NCBI GenBank assembly: GCA_015143735.1
Contig: VKHC01000021.1
Location: 1-28,329, forward strand
DNA length: 28,329 nt
Source of the DNA: Synura sp. LO234KE
Lineage: Eukaryota > Sar > Synurophyceae > Synurales > Mallomonadaceae
Reading direction: 5' to 3'
Shown one piece after another: positions 102 to 16,900 of this stretch (position 1 is the first letter of the stretch; every line of letters starts with the position of its first letter). The notes under the pieces were generated by a model. That model was not told the DNA's origin. It made no database searches and saw nothing but the letters and a program-made list of their open reading frames with translations. The position numbers were made by a program, and so were the translations under genes.

Positions 102-3100
102 CTACGGCCCCCACCGTACCCGAATCGGTTTTGCGCCTACTCCGGAGAGCAATTCCTTGGCTCCGCTGGGAGTGGCGGAAGGATCCATTATATGAGCCTT
201 GCAAAGTTCATATACTTGTCTATGGAAGCGCACGTTAAGGAACAAGGCGATGTTAAAGCTGGGACGACGCCATACTAAGAATACGTACTCGTAGAGCTCA
301 TCCCCAAGCAGCTCCACCGCGTTCCTCCGCTTGTCCGCTATAAATCCCTCGATCAATCCTTGTTGTCGCTGTTTCTGCTCCTGAACCTGGCGACGGACGC
401 ACAGCAGTACGATGAGGAACTCAGAAGGTAAGGTAAGGGACGGGGGGGGGCATAAGCATGCATGTACAGAATAGGAACTGTTCAGAGTTTGGTTAGTCAA
501 TGGATTTATATTGTCTCTCTCAGACTCCTCCAACGGAGCTAAACTATCTCCCAGACCTGTTGAGGAGAGGGCTTGAACCGCGAGACAGTCTGACTTCCGC
601 GGAGGTCGTCGTCGACGTCGGAGGACTTCACATCTGACTGCAAGGCCTGTCGCAGGGCCTGGGACATGCTCCCGCGGGACATCGACATTGACATCACGTC
701 TTTATCCGTCGCCCCTGGGACCTGGTCCTCGTCGCCTATTTCCGCGTCCTCCTCTGCGCCGCGCTCGTCCTTCTCATCTCTGCTGCTGTACCTCGCGGCC
801 ACGGGAATATCTCTGAATTTATCGTCCCCGTCTTCATCCCTCTCCATATCCACGTTCGTGTCCACCTCGCCTATTCTCCCTCGTCGCAACGACCAAACGG
901 GATTCCATTGACCCTGTGTCATCCCATCGCCCCCACCCTCACCGTCACTACTGCTGCTCTCTTCCTTAGGGACTGCGCTCGACTTCCTTGACGACAGCCG
1001 CTTCTGTTCCGCCGGCTGGGACTGCTCGTCGGAGACAACGGATAGTTCCTTGGCACTGGGAGACCTTTTGACCGGATCCACAGAACCTACAGTACCTCCT
1101 GCGTTCGCAAGTCGCGGTGTGAGGCGTAACGGCTGGGCAGCGCTATCGACCGGATGCACGTCAATCGGGAGGACGGCCCTCTGGAGGCTGTGTCTCCTAA
1201 CGGTGACTTCAGACGAGGCGTCGTATACCGCCACTGAATACGGCGCACAAGGGAGGGAACAGACAAGCAAGATGAGGAGAGAATGTAGATGCATTTCAAT
1301 CCCTTCCTCCTTCACCCACCTTTCGGCCCAGTATCCTCTGCCAACCCTGTCATAAATGCAGCCCTCTCTTCCAGCCCCTCATTCTTTTTCTCTTCGGAAA
1401 TCGTTCTATCCGCTCCCGGTCGAACTAAGGTCATCTCCGTCTTTCCGCTGTCTTGCTCATCGTCGTCCTCCTCGAAATCTTCCTCGTAAACAGTCCCGTT
1501 GTTATTGTATCCGGACACGTTGCCGTCAAAGTCAGCGGACATAGACTTCCCGATCTCTAACAGTTCCTCCAAACGTAACCGCTGCCGGCGCTCGTCCGCG
1601 TCCGTGAGTAGCGGCGAAGAATCCTCGTCCGCGAAACCACCGGACTGCCGCGCCACAGCCTTCTCTTCCTCCTCGCGGTCCCTTGCCATCGCTGCAGCGA
1701 TCAACATCTGGCTCACCTCGTAGTCGTTACTCTGACGCAGAGCCGGGGACTCCGAGCAAGGAATGTACACGTCGTCCCCCTCATCCTTACCCTCTGACGA
1801 CACGTCCTCGCCCACAGGCTCCCCCCCTTTCCCCTCGTCACCCTCGTCCCCGCCCTCCTTCCCATCGCCCTTGTCCTCCCCCACAGGTCGTCGGACCGGA
1901 GGCCTCGTCTGGTAGCGACTCAAGGCCTTGCTGCTGGGCGTCCTGGTCTTGCTCGGACCGCGAACTCGATCGCCGCGAACGCCGGCCACCGCGGGCAAAG
2001 GAACCGACACCGCACCACTGACGTCGCGACTTTTGCCAAGTGGGGGAGGAGGAGGTGGCACTTTAGTGGGAGTCCCGGAGTGAGACAGCGACGACCCGTT
2101 ACGTCCTGGAGTGGTGGAAAGCTTGGACGAGGACTTCTCTTTCTTCCTCTTCCCGCCCACCGCGCCCGTAGAGTTTGTGTCCGCTGCATCGGGAGAGGAG
2201 GAGCGGGCGGGGTCCACCGACACGGCAGACGGCTTCTTTATCACTATTTCCGACGGCGCGATGGCCGCTAGCTCTGGAGGGAGAGAGAAGTTATGTTCCT
2301 TCAACCGCTCCCTTATTGACTCCTGAGCCACACGGCATACAACGAGAGAACGGCAGATAACAGATCAAACAGGTGGCCAATACCAACTTTATATCATCCT
2401 CGATAAGTTGGCTCCGATAGATTTGGTCTAATTATTCCTTTACGATTGCTTAATATGATGAGTGCGGTAAACAATGGACGACATATCTCACATCGCAAAG
2501 AATCTCTTTCGTAGTAGGCCGTAGTAGAGGGTCCTTCTGCAGCAGGTTCAGCACTAGCTGTGACAGATCGGTTGAAACCGTTTCCGAGGGAGGTGGCGTG
2601 ACTTGAGCATTGATGATCTTCATTATAAGAGCGCATTGGTTTCTTGCTTCAAAAGGGTGATTTAAAGTACAACACTGCACAACAGAAATGTATTGGTATG
2701 TGGTTATCTTGATGCAGAACGTTCCTCTCCACCCTGAGTAATTTAAAATTAACTCACCTCGTAAAGCACTACTCCAAGAGCCCAAACATCGGATTTATCT
2801 CGATAAGGTTGATCGGCACAGAGTTCTGGAGATAAATAATACGGAGTGCCCACAATAGTTTGCGCAAACGCAGTACTTGTTTCCAATAACTTTGCCACAC
2901 CTAAATCTCCAATTTTCACGCTAAAATAAGGTTGCGAGTCGTCTTTTTTGAGAAATACATTAGCGCATTTTAGGTCCCGATGAAGAATTTTCTTCCGGTG
3001 CAAGTAATACAATCCTAAAATGATCTGTAAACCTATATTCCATGTAACATGCTCCTTTAAGCAAATCAAATTTTTGTCTTTTGCTTTTTTAATTAGCGAC

Positions 3101-3461
3101 TGCAGGTCTCCTTTATTACAAAATTCCATTACTATATATAAACTATCGGTCTCCAAATAGGAATCATAATATTTGACAACATAAGCGCTGTCCATCTGGG
3201 ATAAAATTCGAACTTCATTTATGGCCTCTTCTTGTTCTTTGTAGGAGAGCTCTGCTATCCTTACTGTCTTTATTACGTATATTCCACTATCAACAATTCG
3301 CTTCACTGCAAAACACGAAAATGGCGCAAGGCGATTAATTGATTAATCATCAGCAAAAGTTTGAACTAATATGTCGGACCTTTATGCACAGTTCCAAATG
3401 ATCCAGAACCAAGCTTTTGCATAAAAATGAAATCGCTAGAGCTGGACCTATCATCCCCCAT
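102..3461 (-). CDS. NEK-family serine/threonine kinase with long acidic C-terminal tail, six exons
   Basis: Exons on the minus strand are 3461-3380, 3305-2758, 2674-2492, 2322-1320, 1233-557 and 386-102, giving about 925 residues. All joins keep frame and use GT-AG. The kinase domain is complete: glycine loop GSGSFGTVHK (interrupted by intron 1), the ATP lysine in YVIKTVRI, HRDLKCAN catalytic loop, DLGVAK in place of DFG, activation segment GTPYYLSPE, and DVWALGVVLYE. HRDLKCANVFL with GTPYYLSPEL is characteristic of the NEK (NIMA-related) family, which acts on centrosomes, cilia and microtubules. Residues beyond about 275 are low-complexity, Ser/Pro/acidic, with YEEDFEEDD and a final segment containing ELLGDELYEYVF. 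The start ATG sits 13 codons before the glycine loop. The last acceptor is ambiguous: 386 (ccag) or 419 (ctgag), both in frame. Kinase call firm; tail exons 5-6 less so. Confidence 0.85.
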
Positions 3462-3533: not shown

Positions 3534-5019
3534 ATGTTGAAATGCATTTTTGTAAGTTTTGTTGTTTCCAGTCCAACTTATTTCTCAAGAGAAATAGATC
3601 GTGAGGTTCATGGATTCTTTTATCTGTGGTATGGAAATGTAGATCGTGATGGTGCTTGGAAGCATTGGAATCACGGTATGTAGTTAGTAGTTACCAGAAT
3701 TAGCAATTATTCAATAATGCCTTATGGTTAACCTCTTGATTACATTTTGATATCCAAAGAGGTATTACCGCATTGGAGGAGTGATGTAAATGATCAATAT
3801 TTAACAATTGGTAAACGATTTACACCTCCGGAGGATATTCATTCTCCCTATTATCCGTTGAAGGGTCCTTACAGCAGTAGAGACCCTGAAATTATATTTA
3901 ATCAATTTGCTGAAATGCGTCAAAGTGGAATTGATGTTGCTGTTTTGTCGTGGTGGGGACAATCGTCCAAAAATTATTCCACTGACACGCAAGGTATATC
4001 TACTGATTCTATTGTGTCAATCATCATGGGATTAGCGGAGCATGATGGTTTTATTAAAATTGCTTTTCACCTCGAACCGTATCCTTCAAGATCTGCGCTA
4101 TCTGTGCGTGATGATATTAAGTATATTCTGGAGAAATACGGATCATACACTTCGTTCTATCGAACACGTGATGGACTCCCTCTATTCTATGTTTATGATT
4201 CTTATCACATATCAACGGATGAGTGGGAGGATATTCTTCAGCCGGACGGTAAAAACACTATTCGGAATTCACCATTAGACGCGGTGATGATTGGTTTGTG
4301 GTTGGAGAGGCAGAATGGCGACGATTTGAAAAGGAGTGGGTTTGATGGCGTGTACACGTACTTCGCGTCTGAAGGTTTTTCGTACGGATCCTCTGTGCAT
4401 AACTGGCTACGGATATGCAATTACTGTCGCGCCAATGAAATGCTTTGCGTGTTAAGCGCCGGACCCGGCTATAACGACACTAAAATCCGACCTTGGAATC
4501 ATGCCAACACTATGAGCAGAAGGTGTGGAGTATGGGTTATCAATAAAGACGATCAATTCGGACTGGTATCTCAATTGCGGTTTTCTTTTTCTGTCCTCTC
4601 TCCCGTCCACTTCAGGGATGGATCCTATTACCGAGAAATGCTGGAGGGCGCCCTCGCCGCCAACCCTCATGTCGTCAGGTTATTACAAGCGCCAAGTTCC
4701 CTTGCACAATATTGTAGTAGGATGTTGTCTCGTAACGTTACTGTTCCTTTGATGTCTCTGCCTTCGTGCTCACCCTCTTCTCACCTATTGTCTATGACTG
4801 TGCGCATCAATGTCCTTCCGCGAAAGCATAACTTCTTTTAACGAGTGGGGCGAGGGAACTCAAATTGAACCCGCCCGGTCTAGTGGCGGTGCGTCCGCGG
4901 CATACCTGACCTACGGCCGTAATCCATTCGTGTACTTGGAGATAACGGCAGAGTACGCCAGGAAGTTTCGGGGGGAATTTCACGAAGGTCCCGGAACTAA
5001 TCAAGAACGAGAACTGTAA
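3534..5019 (+). CDS. MANEA: Glycoside hydrolase family 99 endo-alpha-mannosidase, four exons
   Basis: Exons 3534-3675, 3760-4522, 4616-4678 and 4827-5019 give 386 residues. Introns are 84, 93 and 148 nt, all GT-AG and phase-consistent. The product follows the GH99 fold closely: YFSREIDREVHGFFYLWYGN, the KHWNHE-VLPHW block, SPYYPLKGPYSSRDP, VAVLSWWGQ, FHLEPYPSR, LPLFYVYDSY, SGFDGVYTYFASEGF, GPGYNDTKIRPWN and the catalytic SFNEWGEGTQIEPA with both glutamates of the NEWxE motif. Animal members are Golgi type II membrane enzymes that cleave glucosylated mannose from N-glycans. Here the N-terminus is short: MLKCIFVSFVVSS, a weak signal-anchor. Human MANEA is longer (about 460 residues), mostly in the N-terminal stem, so an upstream exon could be missing; the in-frame ATG at 3417 is an alternative start. 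Confidence 0.92.
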
Positions 5020-9418: not shown

Positions 9419-12400
9419 CTAGTCATCGAAGGCATCCGAATAGTAATCCTCATCCGAAGGAATAGACTTTTTAGACATGGAGTGGCTAAGGCCTTTCGTG
9501 ACAGCCGCAGCTCGGTTAGGAGTTGACGCGGACCGCTGTCCAAGAGACGCAGAATCGAATTCATCTTCGTCGTAGTAGTCGTCTTCTTCGCCGCCTGCAC
9601 TATTGCCACTTCCCCGGCTACTAGCCCCCACACTGCTGCTTGCACCTCGTCCACCACCCGATTTCACAGGACTAGCGACGTTTGGTATGGGTACTTTTAA
9701 CTTGGACTCAGTCTCGGAGAAATCATCGTCATATCCGTAGTCTTCGTCTTCATCCTCCTCTCCATCGCCGGCCGCTCCAACAGTTTCCACACCAACAGCT
9801 AAAGACAAATCGGATCTCAACTCTTCACCGACACTTCCGTTCACAGAAACGCCTTTCGGAGGATCAATTGCTGATATTCCCGCGACACCAAGGGTTCCCT
9901 TCTTGGCTGTATCTTCGCTGTACACGTCGTCGTCGTAGTCCACTTCCTCGTCCCCGCCAGGCCGCTCTAATGATTTGATGCCGCCGCCGCTTCTTGACTC
10001 TCCCTTATGCTCAATTGATTCTTTCGCGTCCGAAGGCGGTGTTATCACTACTCCCGGGTAACCGGCCGCACCAGAATCGTCCTCATCTACCAAGCCGGAG
10101 CCTCTCTCAAACTTCTCATCGGCGAGACTGTCCCCATCTCCAACCAAACTGTCCTTGTCCAACAATTCGCGTTCGCTGATTGTCAGGCTGCCGAATTTCC
10201 CTTCAAAGTCTTTGTTGAAATCGCTCTCCGCGTAGGTCTCTTGGGTGACGTTTGTGCCCTCCGAAGAGTCCGGAGACCTTACGGTCGACTCACCGTCGCC
10301 TCCATCTCCGCCGCCGATACTTAAAGCCGGAGGGACCGTTTCGAACTTCATCGCAGGAGGCGGTTCTAGCGACCGCGTCACTTCAGGACTCTGTAGCTCA
10401 GACTTCACTTCAGTACTCTGTGGCTCAGACATCACTTCAGGACTCTGTGGCTCAGACTTCACTTCAGGTGACGATTCCTTCGATTTCATTTCAGGGGAAG
10501 GTTGCTCGGCCTTTATTTCAAGCAATGGTTCCTTGGCCTCCTCCGCCGCGTGAACAAGCGGAGATTCCATGTCCGCGGACATAACGCCGATCGGCTGAAC
10601 AACATCATTACCGTTTGTTGCAGAAGGAGAACTGCTCTCTGCAGGATTCGGTGATGCTGTGTGATCCCTAAGGATGGGAATACTTTCGACACCGTTTGCA
10701 TTACTCTGCATATCCACTGCAGAACCTTCATGCAACAGCGCTTTATTCGCCTCCAATGGTTTTCCATCAACTTTCGGCGATGGAAGTGAAGCGCACTCTT
10801 CTTTGTCCACTCCATCGGGTATCGACGCGTCATTCACCACCACTGAAGCAGATTCGTCAGGATGCACTATTACCAGACGAGCCGCTTCAATTGGTGGGGA
10901 ACTAGACTTAAAGTTGTCAAGTTCCTCGTGGTCCATTTTCTTTTCTCTTAAGCGCAGGCTACCCTCTTCCTTTTCCTCTCCATTTGTGCGCGCAACAGCC
11001 GTTTCGTCCAGGAAGTCAACTTCGTAAAGACTCTCCGCAGCCGCAGTTCCGGAGCCCTCCCTACTCACGACAGCTGCTACATCGTGGCCGGACAACCGGA
11101 CACTGTCGGATTCATTCACTAACTCTTGCGCCAGCCGTGCGTCCTCTTTGGCCTTTAAATCCGCGGCCTCTTTGGCTCGCTGCTGGGCAAGCCGCTCCTC
11201 CGCCTCCCTGGCTAGACGTGCTTCTTTCTCCGCCTTCAATTTAGCTATTTTCTCCTCTTTTAATTTCGCTACTCTCTCCGCCTGGCTGCGAGACTCCTCT
11301 TGCTGTTTCAACTTCGCGTCTTCCTCGGCCTTAATTCGCGCCTCTCGATCGGCCTTCGCCTTGGCCTCCCACTGCTGCCGCTTCTTCAACTCCATTTCCT
11401 CCTTCTTCTTCGCCGCCTCTTGACGGCGCTGGTCCTCTTCGGCCTTCGCCTTTGCAACAGCGTCCGATCGATCAATCGCTGATAACCTCTTCTTCAACGG
11501 CGGCGGATCCACCTTCCGCTTACTCTGACTAACTCTGTCCCTGTCTTCAACGATACCGCCTCCCTCCGTGCGGTCCTTCGACCCGCCAAGCCGACCCGCG
11601 GCGATCTCCTCCACTGTCTGCTCAGTGTGAAAGCTCCACGCGGAGCTCTGCACAGGAGAAACTGTTCCGTTAGCTCCCGGGTCATCTTGCTCAGGTCTCT
11701 CGGGCTTCGAATCTGTATCTGTCGGGCCAACAGAGACAACCCCAGTCGCTGTCGAGGTCCCAGGCTCTGGCGGTTTCGTCAACTCTCTTCGTATAGCCTT
11801 TCTGCTTATGCGGACCTTCAAGTCTCCCGATATTCCATTGCTCACAATCACGACCCGTCTGAGATGCGTCACCCACCACTGGACCGAATCTGGCAAGAAC
11901 GCAGCCACGTCAACAGACGACCGGGGACCCGACTCCCCGTCCTCTAACTTCTGACGGTAGGACTTGTACGCTCCGATGTCGATATTCGTCTTGGCCTCCA
12001 GCGACGTGGCCGGATCGTACACCACCGCTTGTAGGCGTTCAGTCGCCGCCGGAGCTTTCGGTGCCAGTAATGCGAGCACCACTGGTCGCTCGTAAATGTC
12101 GGACACGAGTTCGGTCATAACCGTGTCCATTCCGACTTCCAACTTGTTACCTATTTTCACCAGACTCGGTTGGCTGGCAGTGCTCTTCTTCAGCCGCGGA
12201 GGTGATTCGCTGTTGTTGCTGATAACGGCCGGGGACAGGAACTCCGGGGCGGAGGCGGAGTGCATGGCGGAGGTAGGGGCGCGCTGGGCCACGATTTGTG
12301 CGCGCCGCTTAGATAAGGTGCTCACCTTCTGTTTATTTAAAGACACGAAATTCGGGACAGCGGCGACTTCCCCGCGACCGGCCCCGCCTTCCCCCTGCGG

Positions 12401-14744
12401 CTGTCGGTTCACAGCCGCGGACCGTTTCACATGACTCAGGTACTTGCTCGCGTTATTGACCACTTGTATGACCCAGTGGATGAACTTCATGGCGGCCGAC
12501 TCCACTTCGAAGGTAATCGCACTAACGCGACTGCTTCCGTCGGCAGGGTCCGTCAGAGAAGCCTCTTGTAGCTCCCTAGTGTGGGGCGAGATGATATCCA
12601 CTTTGTACTGTCCGCGAGGGGCGAGAGGGGCACACATTGCGATCGTTGTTATAATCTGGAGTAATATTCGAACATGAGAGGCAACCGCTTCGTTACCTTG
12701 GGTACAGTCGCAGGAATCAAATGGTTCATAAGCTGTGCCAGGTCTTGCGCTTGGGCGAAGTCAAGGAAAGCTTGCCAGGACAGCGATTGCGCCGACTGTA
12801 CCGTAGGACATGGAAACGGGAAGGAGGCGAATTAGAAAGAATCTAATCGTGTGACTCTGTACTAGGCTCTCCTCTCCACTGGGCATACACACACATACAT
12901 ACATACATACATACATACATGCAGCACTTGTCACTCACATCGACCTCTTCTTGGAGCAGAACGAGCACTGATGCGCCTGTGATCGCCAGACACCGCGGAG
13001 GGGACCGCACTTCGCAGAGCAGTTCCACGTCTTCGAACACGATCTCCTCCATGCCCACCCTGCTGAGGTGCCGCGGAGAGCTCTCCGCCGCCACGGGCGC
13101 ATTCGCTGCCGGTCGAGCGAACTTAATGCGCTTGCCGTTGTGCTCGGTCGACAGTCTCTTCGGACTTGTCCCCGATGCCGCACTCTCCCCCACCCCATAG
13201 GAGTTCAGGCTGAGCTTCTCTGTTGCTGAGACGTCGTTAATCTGCACTGTATTAGAATGTCTCTGGGAGCGGGTTCCCTCCCGTGTCCCGGAGACGACCC
13301 TCAAGTCTCCTCGCTCGTCGGTCTCGAAGTGCGGGAATTCGCCGGGGCCGTCCTGGCTCGTGGACACAGTCACAGCACCTTGCTCCTCAACCCCCGGGTG
13401 ATTGATCTGCGGTTTCGGTAACCGCCGAGGCGCAGAGGAAGTGGAAGGGGCGGAGGGCATTCCAAATTTCTTCCGAAGTAACTTTCCGACGTGTGGGTCG
13501 GGCGGTCTAGCGAGGGCAGCCGCAGTGTTGGCAGTGAAAGTCACCGGCGATGACGAGGAAAGGGCGTGACTCGCAAGACTGAAAAGACTGTCGTCCTCGA
13601 CAGAGTGCAACGACGAGCTCAACTCGGTCAGTCTCGTGGGCTCGATCTGCTCCAGTGGTCCGTGCGCGTACTTCGCCTCGACCCGATCCGCCACCGCGGG
13701 GAGAGGAAGCTCCATCCGCTTCGTACTTGCGCTGCTTAATCGCTCGCCCACATTCTGGCCCAGTCTCTGCAGCTGCACGTTAGCATAGAAATTCCACTTC
13801 AGAAGGGACTCGTTGCTAGCCACGTGTTTGTCTCGTTCCTCTGACCTACTCGCACTCTCTTCATCGATCTGCGCCTCCTCGGCCCAGTCAATGGCAGGAA
13901 TACCATGCACGTTGAAGTCTGTCTCTTTCTTTAGAACGCGCTCAGCTTTTCTCATCCGTAGCCGTTGAAGATAAAGCGGACCCTCGTTCGAACCCCCTGT
14001 ATCATGAGAGGCTAGTTGCGACGGCGAAAGTTTATAAGATAACTCGCTTAATGGATTAGGAAGCATAAGCGGATTAACACGTAGCTTATGCGGAGATATG
14101 CCTAACGCTTTCACAAGCGGCTTAATGTCAGCAAGGAAATCCAAATCACTAATTAATTTCAGTAGGTAATTTTGTCCCTCCCACATAAAAGGTCTAGGCA
14201 TATCGGGATCAACATTAGGCATAGTGAGCCTCCAAGCGCACACCATTTCCACCAAATCGACGGTAATATCCCTGATACGACTCAAATAATCTAGTATCAT
14301 AACACTATCCCGAGTTTCGAGTTCTGTGTCTCCGTTTTCATCCCTAATCCAAGGTTGGCAAGCTACAATAATTTTATCTAGTACAGTTTCTCTGTTTAGC
14401 AGATGCTTCAAGACCTTAAGCTCAATAACTCGATCAGTTCCCTCATGATGAACAAAACCAAATGTTGAAGCGATAGAATCAAAGGCAGATGAATTTTCGA
14501 CACGTTTCACCAGTTTTTGACTCCTAGTAATTTTGTTTCGTCTAGAATCAACCATGCCGGAGAAAGTCACCAAATCAGCGCTTTCATCTACGGCAACAGA
14601 TGAAATCAACTTTTTTACGTCATCTGTAGAGGAAAGCACCATCCGAAGCTTAGACAAATCATCCGACGGAGCCAATCTGTCATTCCAACCTATTTCGAGT
14701 TTGTGAAGAACCTTGGGATGGATTTCATTCTTTCCTGGCTTCAT
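9419..14744 (-). CDS. Large putative ciliary/microtubule protein with dynein-stalk-like segment and coiled coil
   Basis: Exon 1 is 14744-12939, exon 2 is 12795-12697, exon 3 starts at 12607 (or 12655) and ends at 9419, giving about 1,697 (or 1,713) residues. All joins are phase 0. Residues about 1-260 are a folded, AT-encoded domain with MWEGQNYLLKLISDLDFL; I do not recognise the family. Residues about 565-720 (exon 1 end, exon 2, exon 3 start) follow the layout of the dynein heavy-chain stalk: 'EVRSPP' then a hydrophobic helix, SWQAFLDFA, and later VESAAMKFIHWVIQVV. A Lys/Glu/Ala coiled coil follows (about 12 heptads, encoded around 11140-11480), then SPEV-type repeats and a long acidic tail with four DYYxD/DDFS-type motifs, ending DEDYYSDAFDD. 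It may bind microtubules in a cilium; this is inference. Frame continuity is solid, function is not. Confidence 0.75.
10375..10500 (-). repeat. Degenerate 27-bp tandem repeat encoding KSEPQSPEV units
   Basis: Within exon 3 of the large gene, five or so units of nine codons encode variants of KSEPQSPEV (SPEVKSEPQ, SPEVMSEPQ, STEVKSELQ, SPEV). In plus-strand DNA the repeat reads 'ctcagacttcacttcagga/gtactctgtgg'. Low-complexity acidic/Pro repeats are common in disordered linkers. Confidence 0.8.
12893..12920 (+). repeat. ACAT tetranucleotide microsatellite in an intron
   Basis: About seven ACAT/CATA units lie in intron 1 of the large minus-strand gene (intron 12938-12796). Reading through it in the exon 1 frame would give a Cys-Met-Tyr-Val run, an artefact of not splicing at the strong gat|gtgagt donor. 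Confidence 0.9.
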
Positions 14745-14894: not shown

Positions 14895-16213
14895 ATGGCG
14901 CGGCCGCTTATCTCCCTTTTATCAATTTTTGTGGTTATCCAACTTTCTTCGGCATTTTTTCATGGCATTTCGTCTAGATCTGTTCGTAAAGTTTCGTTGG
15001 AGATGGAATCTGATTTCTCCGCTCTTGAAAAGAAATTGCTCGAAAGATCTGCTAAAAGGGAAACTGAACCTGTCGACGTATCCCCTAAATCTGGTTCTGT
15101 TGCAGCTAAAAAGAATGTAGTCAAGCCAGTCTCTCAGGCAGTGAAGAAGGCAGAAGTGCCGAAAAAAGCCGAAGTCGTTCAACCTGCCAAGGTTGTGCCC
15201 GTCCAAAAGGTGGAGCAGGTGAAGAAGGCTGATATTGCCTCTAATTCTAAGGGCACCTCTGTACCAGAACCAAAAATAGTTAAAGAGTCTATAAAAGTGG
15301 CGCCTAAAGAGAGCGTCGTTTCGAAGACTATTATTGTGGATCCAACACCTGTTCCGCCTATATCTGCTGGAGAGTATCTCGGCGGAATTTCTTTGGGTCT
15401 TGCCCCTTTTATTGTCTTGCCTGCGCTTGTTATACCCCGAGTTCTTGCTCTTTTCAAACCACCTAAGCCGTTACCAGTACCCCCACCTCCTAAAGTACAG
15501 CCGTATTCAAAGCCTTTAGGTGAAGGAATCTCCGAGGGTTTAAAGGAATTCCTATCTGATAAGCGACCAGCTGATATAACAAAGGGAATTAAGTTGAGTG
15601 CGATAGGATTTGGTTCATCGCTAGTCTTCCTAGTTGGTTCTATTGGACTCTCCCAGAAACCTACTGAAGCTCCAGTTACACCTGCACCGGTGGTGAAAAC
15701 CGAGAAGAAAACCGCCCCAGCCCCTGTCAAAAAAGTCGAACCTGCTCCTGCGCTTAAGGTTGAGCCAGCCCCTGCACCGAAGGTTGAACCTGCTCCTGCG
15801 CCTAAGATTGAGCCAGCCCCTGCACCTAAGGTTGAGCCAGCCCCTGCACCGAAGGTTGAACCTGCTCCTGCGCCTAAGGTTGAGCCAGCCCCTGCACCGA
15901 AGGTTGAACCTGCTCCTGCGCCTAAGGTTGAGCCAGCCCCTGCACCGAAGGTTGAACCTGCTCCTGCGCCTAAGGTTGAGCCAGCCCCTGCACCTACCCC
16001 TGCTCCAAAAGTTGAACCCGCTCCCAAGGAACAACCTGTGGAGGTTCTGCAAGTCAAGCCCACAGCTAGTACGGAATCCGTTAATCTGGACGCAATCAAG
16101 TCACTTTCGGTATGTCGTAGAATCGATATCCTCTACTCTCTATTAACCTCGTTCTATCTCACTTTTTCCCCTCCCTACCGCAATAAATATTACAGAAGTC
16201 GAAGAAGCGTTAA
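14895..16213 (+). CDS. Predicted plastid-targeted membrane protein with PAPAPKVE repeats
   Basis: Exon 1 is 14895-16109 and exon 2 is 16196-16213, with an 86-nt gtatgt...tacag intron, giving about 410 residues ending KSLSKSKKR. Residues 1-20 are a clear signal peptide ending SSA, followed by Phe21-Phe22 and a Ser/Arg-rich stretch. A Phe at +1 after the signal peptide is the hallmark of stramenopile bipartite plastid targeting. A Lys/Val/Ala/Pro linker leads to two hydrophobic segments (about 164-186 and 234-252), then about a dozen KVEPAPAP-type octapeptides (about 281-375). The linker and repeat suggest an extended spacer attached to a membrane, comparable in composition to TonB-like linkers, but no homology is implied. 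The function is unknown. Without splicing the frame runs on to 16217. Confidence 0.8.
15739..16020 (+). repeat. 24/48-bp coding minisatellite (PAPAPKVE)
   Basis: Two alternating 24-bp variants, one using gaa-cct-gct-cct-gcg-cct and one using gag-cca-gcc-cct-gca-ccg, form a 48-bp higher-order unit repeated with almost no change. Both variants encode the same octapeptide, so the higher-order pattern records recent 48-bp expansions rather than selection on protein sequence. Confidence 0.9.
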
Positions 16214-16900
16214 ATAGAATTGACCTTCACCAATCTAGCTTAGGACCAAGTTGAGGCGATGGTTCATGACAAACACACATTTTCGGAAATAGTATTTAAC
16301 ATTTTATTTAGATTGTTCCCTTCAGCACTTGTGATATTTTGTAGCTCCTACTCTACGCCCTTAATGCAAATATAAATGTACTTTATTCATCCTCTGTGAT
16401 TATATGATTACCGAAAATCGAATAATAAAGATCACTAGTGAGGAAACGAAGGCGAGAAGAGAAGTAGGCAATGGCCGCCCAGAGACGCCTGTACAACCAA
16501 CCTAAAACCTCGCTTGTAGTAACTGCTAGTGGTGAGACGAAGGAGCTCCGGTGCATCATTTACACCTCTTTCCTCTATGGCTGCTGCCCAGCGCGTGTAA
16601 TGGTTTCTGTGATTCTGAATTTTCGACAAAAAGTGCTAGTTTCTGTCCGCGCGTGAGGCAGGCTAATCCATCTTTCTAGTACTAGCCCCCCACGGTGTAG
16701 CACTAAAGTAGCTACTCTGGTGGCTGCTTGAGCGGTGGCGTGCATGCTCTTGGAGATGTGGCGACCGGTCTCCAGTGCCGTTCTGGATTCGCCTGGTACT
16801 TATCGCGGCGGAGCATATTACTAGTTCGTCTCCATAGTGCTTTGCCGAAAATCGAATAGTTAATTATGAAGTCTTGTTAGTAGATATAGATAAGAGATCA
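16214..16900. other. Intergenic; 14-bp direct repeat flanks a 420-bp block
   Basis: The segment holds the 3' UTR of the preceding gene and a block bounded by 'ccgaaaatcgaata' at 16411-16424 and 16845-16858. No coding content is recognised. The direct repeat could be a target-site duplication of a short insertion (16425-16844), but no terminal structure or poly(A) is obvious. Confidence 0.35.

Follow-up and report, generated by a model that had tools for sequence, protein, structure and literature searches.

The gene analysed here encodes a predicted protein of 1697 amino acids (aa) which, judged by its sequence, is a member of a conserved family unnamed in the sources searched. A segment of this protein, unit 1 (aa 565-705), may be a distant relative of the microtubule-binding tip of dynein; the support is moderate and the chances are about even. 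The gene lies on the minus strand of the window, which is the whole 28,329-nucleotide stretch of DNA analysed, and its host is probably an alga with flagella.

Gene Model and Protein Family

The features of the gene are as follows:

9419..14744 (-): gene; exons 14744-12939, 12795-12697 and 12607-9419, joined in frame; 1697 aa
13920..14474 (-): conserved helical domain at the N-terminus, aa 91-275 (15 homologues; alignment A5; model of P0010)
12939..13052 (-): first part of unit 1, aa 565-602 (an acidic residue and a hydrophobic pattern, then Pro-Pro and a hydrophobic helix)
12697..12795 (-): unit 1, middle part, which is exon 2, aa 603-635 (translation and alignment of relatives)
12398..12607 (-): last part of unit 1, aa 636-705, containing the helix ESAAMKFIHWV (translation and alignment of relatives)
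11798..12142 (-): unit 2, aa 791-905, conserved (aligned with P0011, P0014 and P0015)
11123..11482 (-): highly charged stretch, aa 1011-1130 (53% K/R/D/E)
9422..11122 (-): acidic tail, aa 1131-1697 (several acidic Tyr/Phe motifs)

The three exons proposed in an earlier note on this DNA were found to join in frame into the 1697-aa protein, with GT..AG borders. The GT donor of intron 1 is located in the loop that follows the first helix of unit 1. Only the relatives whose frame ends in this loop were counted, and the frames of all nine that end in the unit 1 region (9/9) stop 2 to 18 residues past the loop Val. As the frames of the relatives end where the window gene has its GT donor, intron 1 is supported. 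The loop Val of these relatives, which are known here from their protein letters, may correspond to a read-through donor.

Exon 1 has 15 homologues (E 2.6e-144 to 8.0e-36), all of which share the N-terminal domain, and P0001 is a close relative of the last exon. Wherever the source names the exon 1 homologues (4/15), the label is "hypothetical protein". The first part of unit 1 is present in 12 of the 15 (P0002, P0003, P0005-P0008 and P0011-P0016) and absent from P0004, P0009 and P0010; the predicted proteins P0011, P0014 and P0015 run uninterrupted across both unit 1 and unit 2. The layout of the family comprises the N-terminal helical domain, unit 1, a second conserved unit (unit 2) and an acidic tail. 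The alignment of the N-terminal domain (A5, 11 rows) contains 46 invariant columns. This domain of P0010 was modelled as helices, with block means mostly of 82-96 (lowest 64), and a fold search with the model returned no informative match. In P0009, the N-terminal domain is followed by a different C-terminal sequence in place of unit 1, which may be due to a gene that ends differently or to a join in the assembly.

Motifs and Sequence–Profile Searches of Unit 1

The motifs EVRSPP, SWQAFLDFA and VESAAMKFIHWVIQVV, on which the earlier proposal of a dynein-like segment was built, are indeed present and start at aa 578, 608 and 670. Their order is like that of the dynein tip: an acidic residue with a hydrophobic pattern, Pro-Pro and a hydrophobic helix, and then a helix of the form (S/E)-x-A-A-x-x-hydrophobic-x-x-W/Y-V. 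Unlike the dynein tip, unit 1 is acidic and has few Lys and Arg residues. Its net charge is -7 or -5 with 11-14 Lys+Arg, compared with -3 to +2 and 22-28 in seven dynein pieces that are somewhat longer than unit 1. The first helix after the Pro pair contains a single Arg in the window protein; in P0015, it lacks basic residues altogether. The structure model of unit 1 had a pLDDT of 23-35, which is too low to read the fold.

The Pfam family MT (PF12777) spans the stalk and the tip of dynein. Three window pieces searched against Pfam at an E value of 10 gave no match, MT included, and eight relatives gave only weak unrelated matches, with no MT among them. No dynein was present among the PDB matches of the profiles A11 (43 positions only) and A12. 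Meanwhile, MT matched two other places, L001 and L002, in the same 8.09-Mb assembly of 549 contigs, of which the window is one, and the PDB chains closest to their stalk pieces are axonemal dyneins.

Along the whole 1697-aa protein, a dynein profile found its best place at aa 566-656; the register was the same, which speaks for the relation, although the score there was negative. The HMMER comparison of unit 1 with dynein gave -1.3 bits for the window protein (1/100 shuffles as high), -2.7 for P0015 (31/100 shuffles as high), -3.7 for P0011 and -4.2 for P0014, the last value being under that of its own reversed sequence (-3.2). That all sequence–profile searches were blind to a dynein relation favours another explanation, namely that unit 1 is a small helical domain with no relation to dynein, whose Pro-Pro and AA..W helices became dynein-like by convergence of common patterns. 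The acidity of unit 1 also speaks for it.

Profile–Profile Comparison of Unit 1 with Dynein Tips

The dynein profile A3 was made from seven dynein tips. The main unit 1 profile contained the window protein, P0015, P0011, P0014 and six fragment relatives placed by MAFFT in a dynein-free alignment; these fragments reach only across the first helix. The main profile matched A3 with a score of 27.6 over 104 collinear columns. Shuffling the columns of the dynein profile never gave a score as high, either in 100 shuffles (maximum 26.2) or in a further 250 (maximum 22.4, none with at least 90 columns). Because the periodicity of helices is lost when columns are shuffled, any helical match looks better in such a test than it should. 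When nine hand-placed fragments were used, the score was 27.9, and none of the shuffles of either side was as high (0/300 and 0/300, maxima 23.1 and 20.8), while an earlier, poorer MAFFT placement of the fragments scored 24.4. The four rows without fragments scored 16.2 against the dynein tips (8/100 shuffles as high), the window protein with P0015 only scored 14.4 (13/100 as high, one shuffle at 27.3), and the longer four-row alignment A2 scored 18.2 against A3 (P 0.12).

For the slice test, the host genome's dyneins L001 and L002 were aligned over 1350 aa and cut into 16 overlapping slices. In all four versions of the profile, the tip slice gave 106-117 aligned columns, and the remaining slices gave 1-55. 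The main profile scored 27.5 over 117 columns with the tip slice, 18.8 with the overlapping slice and at most 15.0 with the rest. For the hand-placed profile, the corresponding scores were 28.0, 19.5 for the next slice and 15.1 for the rest. The tip slice was still the top one for the fragment-free profiles (20.1 and 20.6, the rest at most 15.1). As a caution, the unrelated N-terminal profile of the family scored 20.8 against the dynein tips over 16 columns, which exceeds the unit 1 score without fragments.

The dynein-like segment of the earlier note is thereby upheld in part: the resemblance to the tip rises above shuffles when partial relatives are included, but the four-sequence score is within their reach. 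The profile–profile check suggested there was likewise not negative, having been run against the seven dynein tips and not by HHpred against the Pfam profile. The explanation by an unrelated helical domain gains from the weak match without fragments and from the score of the protein's other helical domain; it is opposed by a match that is collinear across unit 1 and specific to the dynein tip slice, and by the 250 shuffles that reached neither the score nor 90 columns. We consider its chance to be slightly below even.

Motor, Stalk and Tubulin Interface

Unlike a dynein heavy chain, the window protein has no Walker A motif, no apparent coiled-coil arms and no Pfam match. GxxxxGK[ST] is missing from it, in agreement with the lack of a motor motif stated before, and also from P0011, P0014 and P0015; no AAA domain was matched in Pfam by the window pieces or the eight relatives. 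The gene might also be what is left of a dynein heavy chain after decay or rearrangement, and the resemblance of unit 1 is all that speaks for this. The spliced open frame of 1697 codons, the N-terminal domain conserved across 15 homologues and the absence of Walker A from four proteins make a remnant extremely improbable.

The proposed dynein stalk was not confirmed. By eye, the sequence on either side of unit 1 looks disordered, with much Pro, Gly, Ser and Ala and no apparent coiled-coil arms, so that a stalk lacks support; unit 1 may be a cap without one. Unit 1 is acidic, has roughly half as many basic residues as the dynein pieces and has few or none in its first helix, which speaks against the same tubulin interface. 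In one report, the first helix of dynein is described as moving with stalk registry (PMC6629372). Without arms, nothing would drive such a movement in unit 1, and a switchable microtubule grip is therefore unlikely.

Unit 2 and the Tail

By eye, a Pro-hydrophobic helix and a Trp helix can be seen in both units, and MAFFT put the first helix of unit 1 onto unit 2 in alignment A1, as would be expected of two copies of one dynein-cap-like domain. However, the unit 2 profile matched neither unit 1 (12.1 over 7 columns) nor dynein (12.6 over 22 columns), both scores being at the shuffle level, and we regard two copies as very unlikely.

The highly charged stretch behind unit 2 is perhaps a long helix. 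The tail was correctly called acidic in the earlier note, its net charge being -73 over aa 1131-1697. A simple pattern finds five acidic Tyr/Phe motifs in it (9422-10350, minus strand), at aa 1431, 1525, 1585, 1642 and 1687.

Possible Role of the Protein

The explanation that we prefer, at nearly an even chance, is a non-motor scaffold in which unit 1 most likely shares its ancestry or fold with the dynein cap, with no stalk or AAA ring. Unit 1 would adopt the dynein-cap fold, the N-terminal helical domain would bind a partner, and the protein would be located on the microtubule skeleton, either in the flagellum or in the cytoplasm. Unit 1 might hold tubulin there, and the hold would be static because no ATP cycle could switch it; alternatively, tubulin binding might have been lost and unit 1 might serve as a protein–protein cap. 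A family of non-motor proteins anchored statically to microtubules or doublets by a stalkless dynein-type cap would be undescribed so far and would show that such a cap can function away from a motor; we consider this unlikely.

Should unit 1 prove to be a dynein-type cap, the part of dynein that reads tubulin would also occur as a module of its own, which would bear on the origin of stalk and cap and would provide a motor-free protein for studying the cap–tubulin contact. Otherwise, the window still encodes a member of a conserved multi-domain protein family that has no name in the sources searched.

Other Genes of the Window

A protein kinase domain (PF00069), NEK-like by eye, is encoded at 2749-3306 and 1312-2331 on the minus strand. 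An open reading frame (ORF) near it contains an acidic stretch, YEEDFEEDDD, which resembles the tail motifs of the 1697-aa protein. A glycosyl hydrolase family 99 protein (PF16317) is encoded at 3747-4841 on the plus strand. The ORF at 14895-16217 (plus strand) has a signal-peptide-like start with an SSAFF motif, followed by KVEPAPAP repeats. An SSAFF motif after a signal peptide is typical of secondary-plastid targeting, and the start of this ORF suggests a fit with a photosynthetic stramenopile host.
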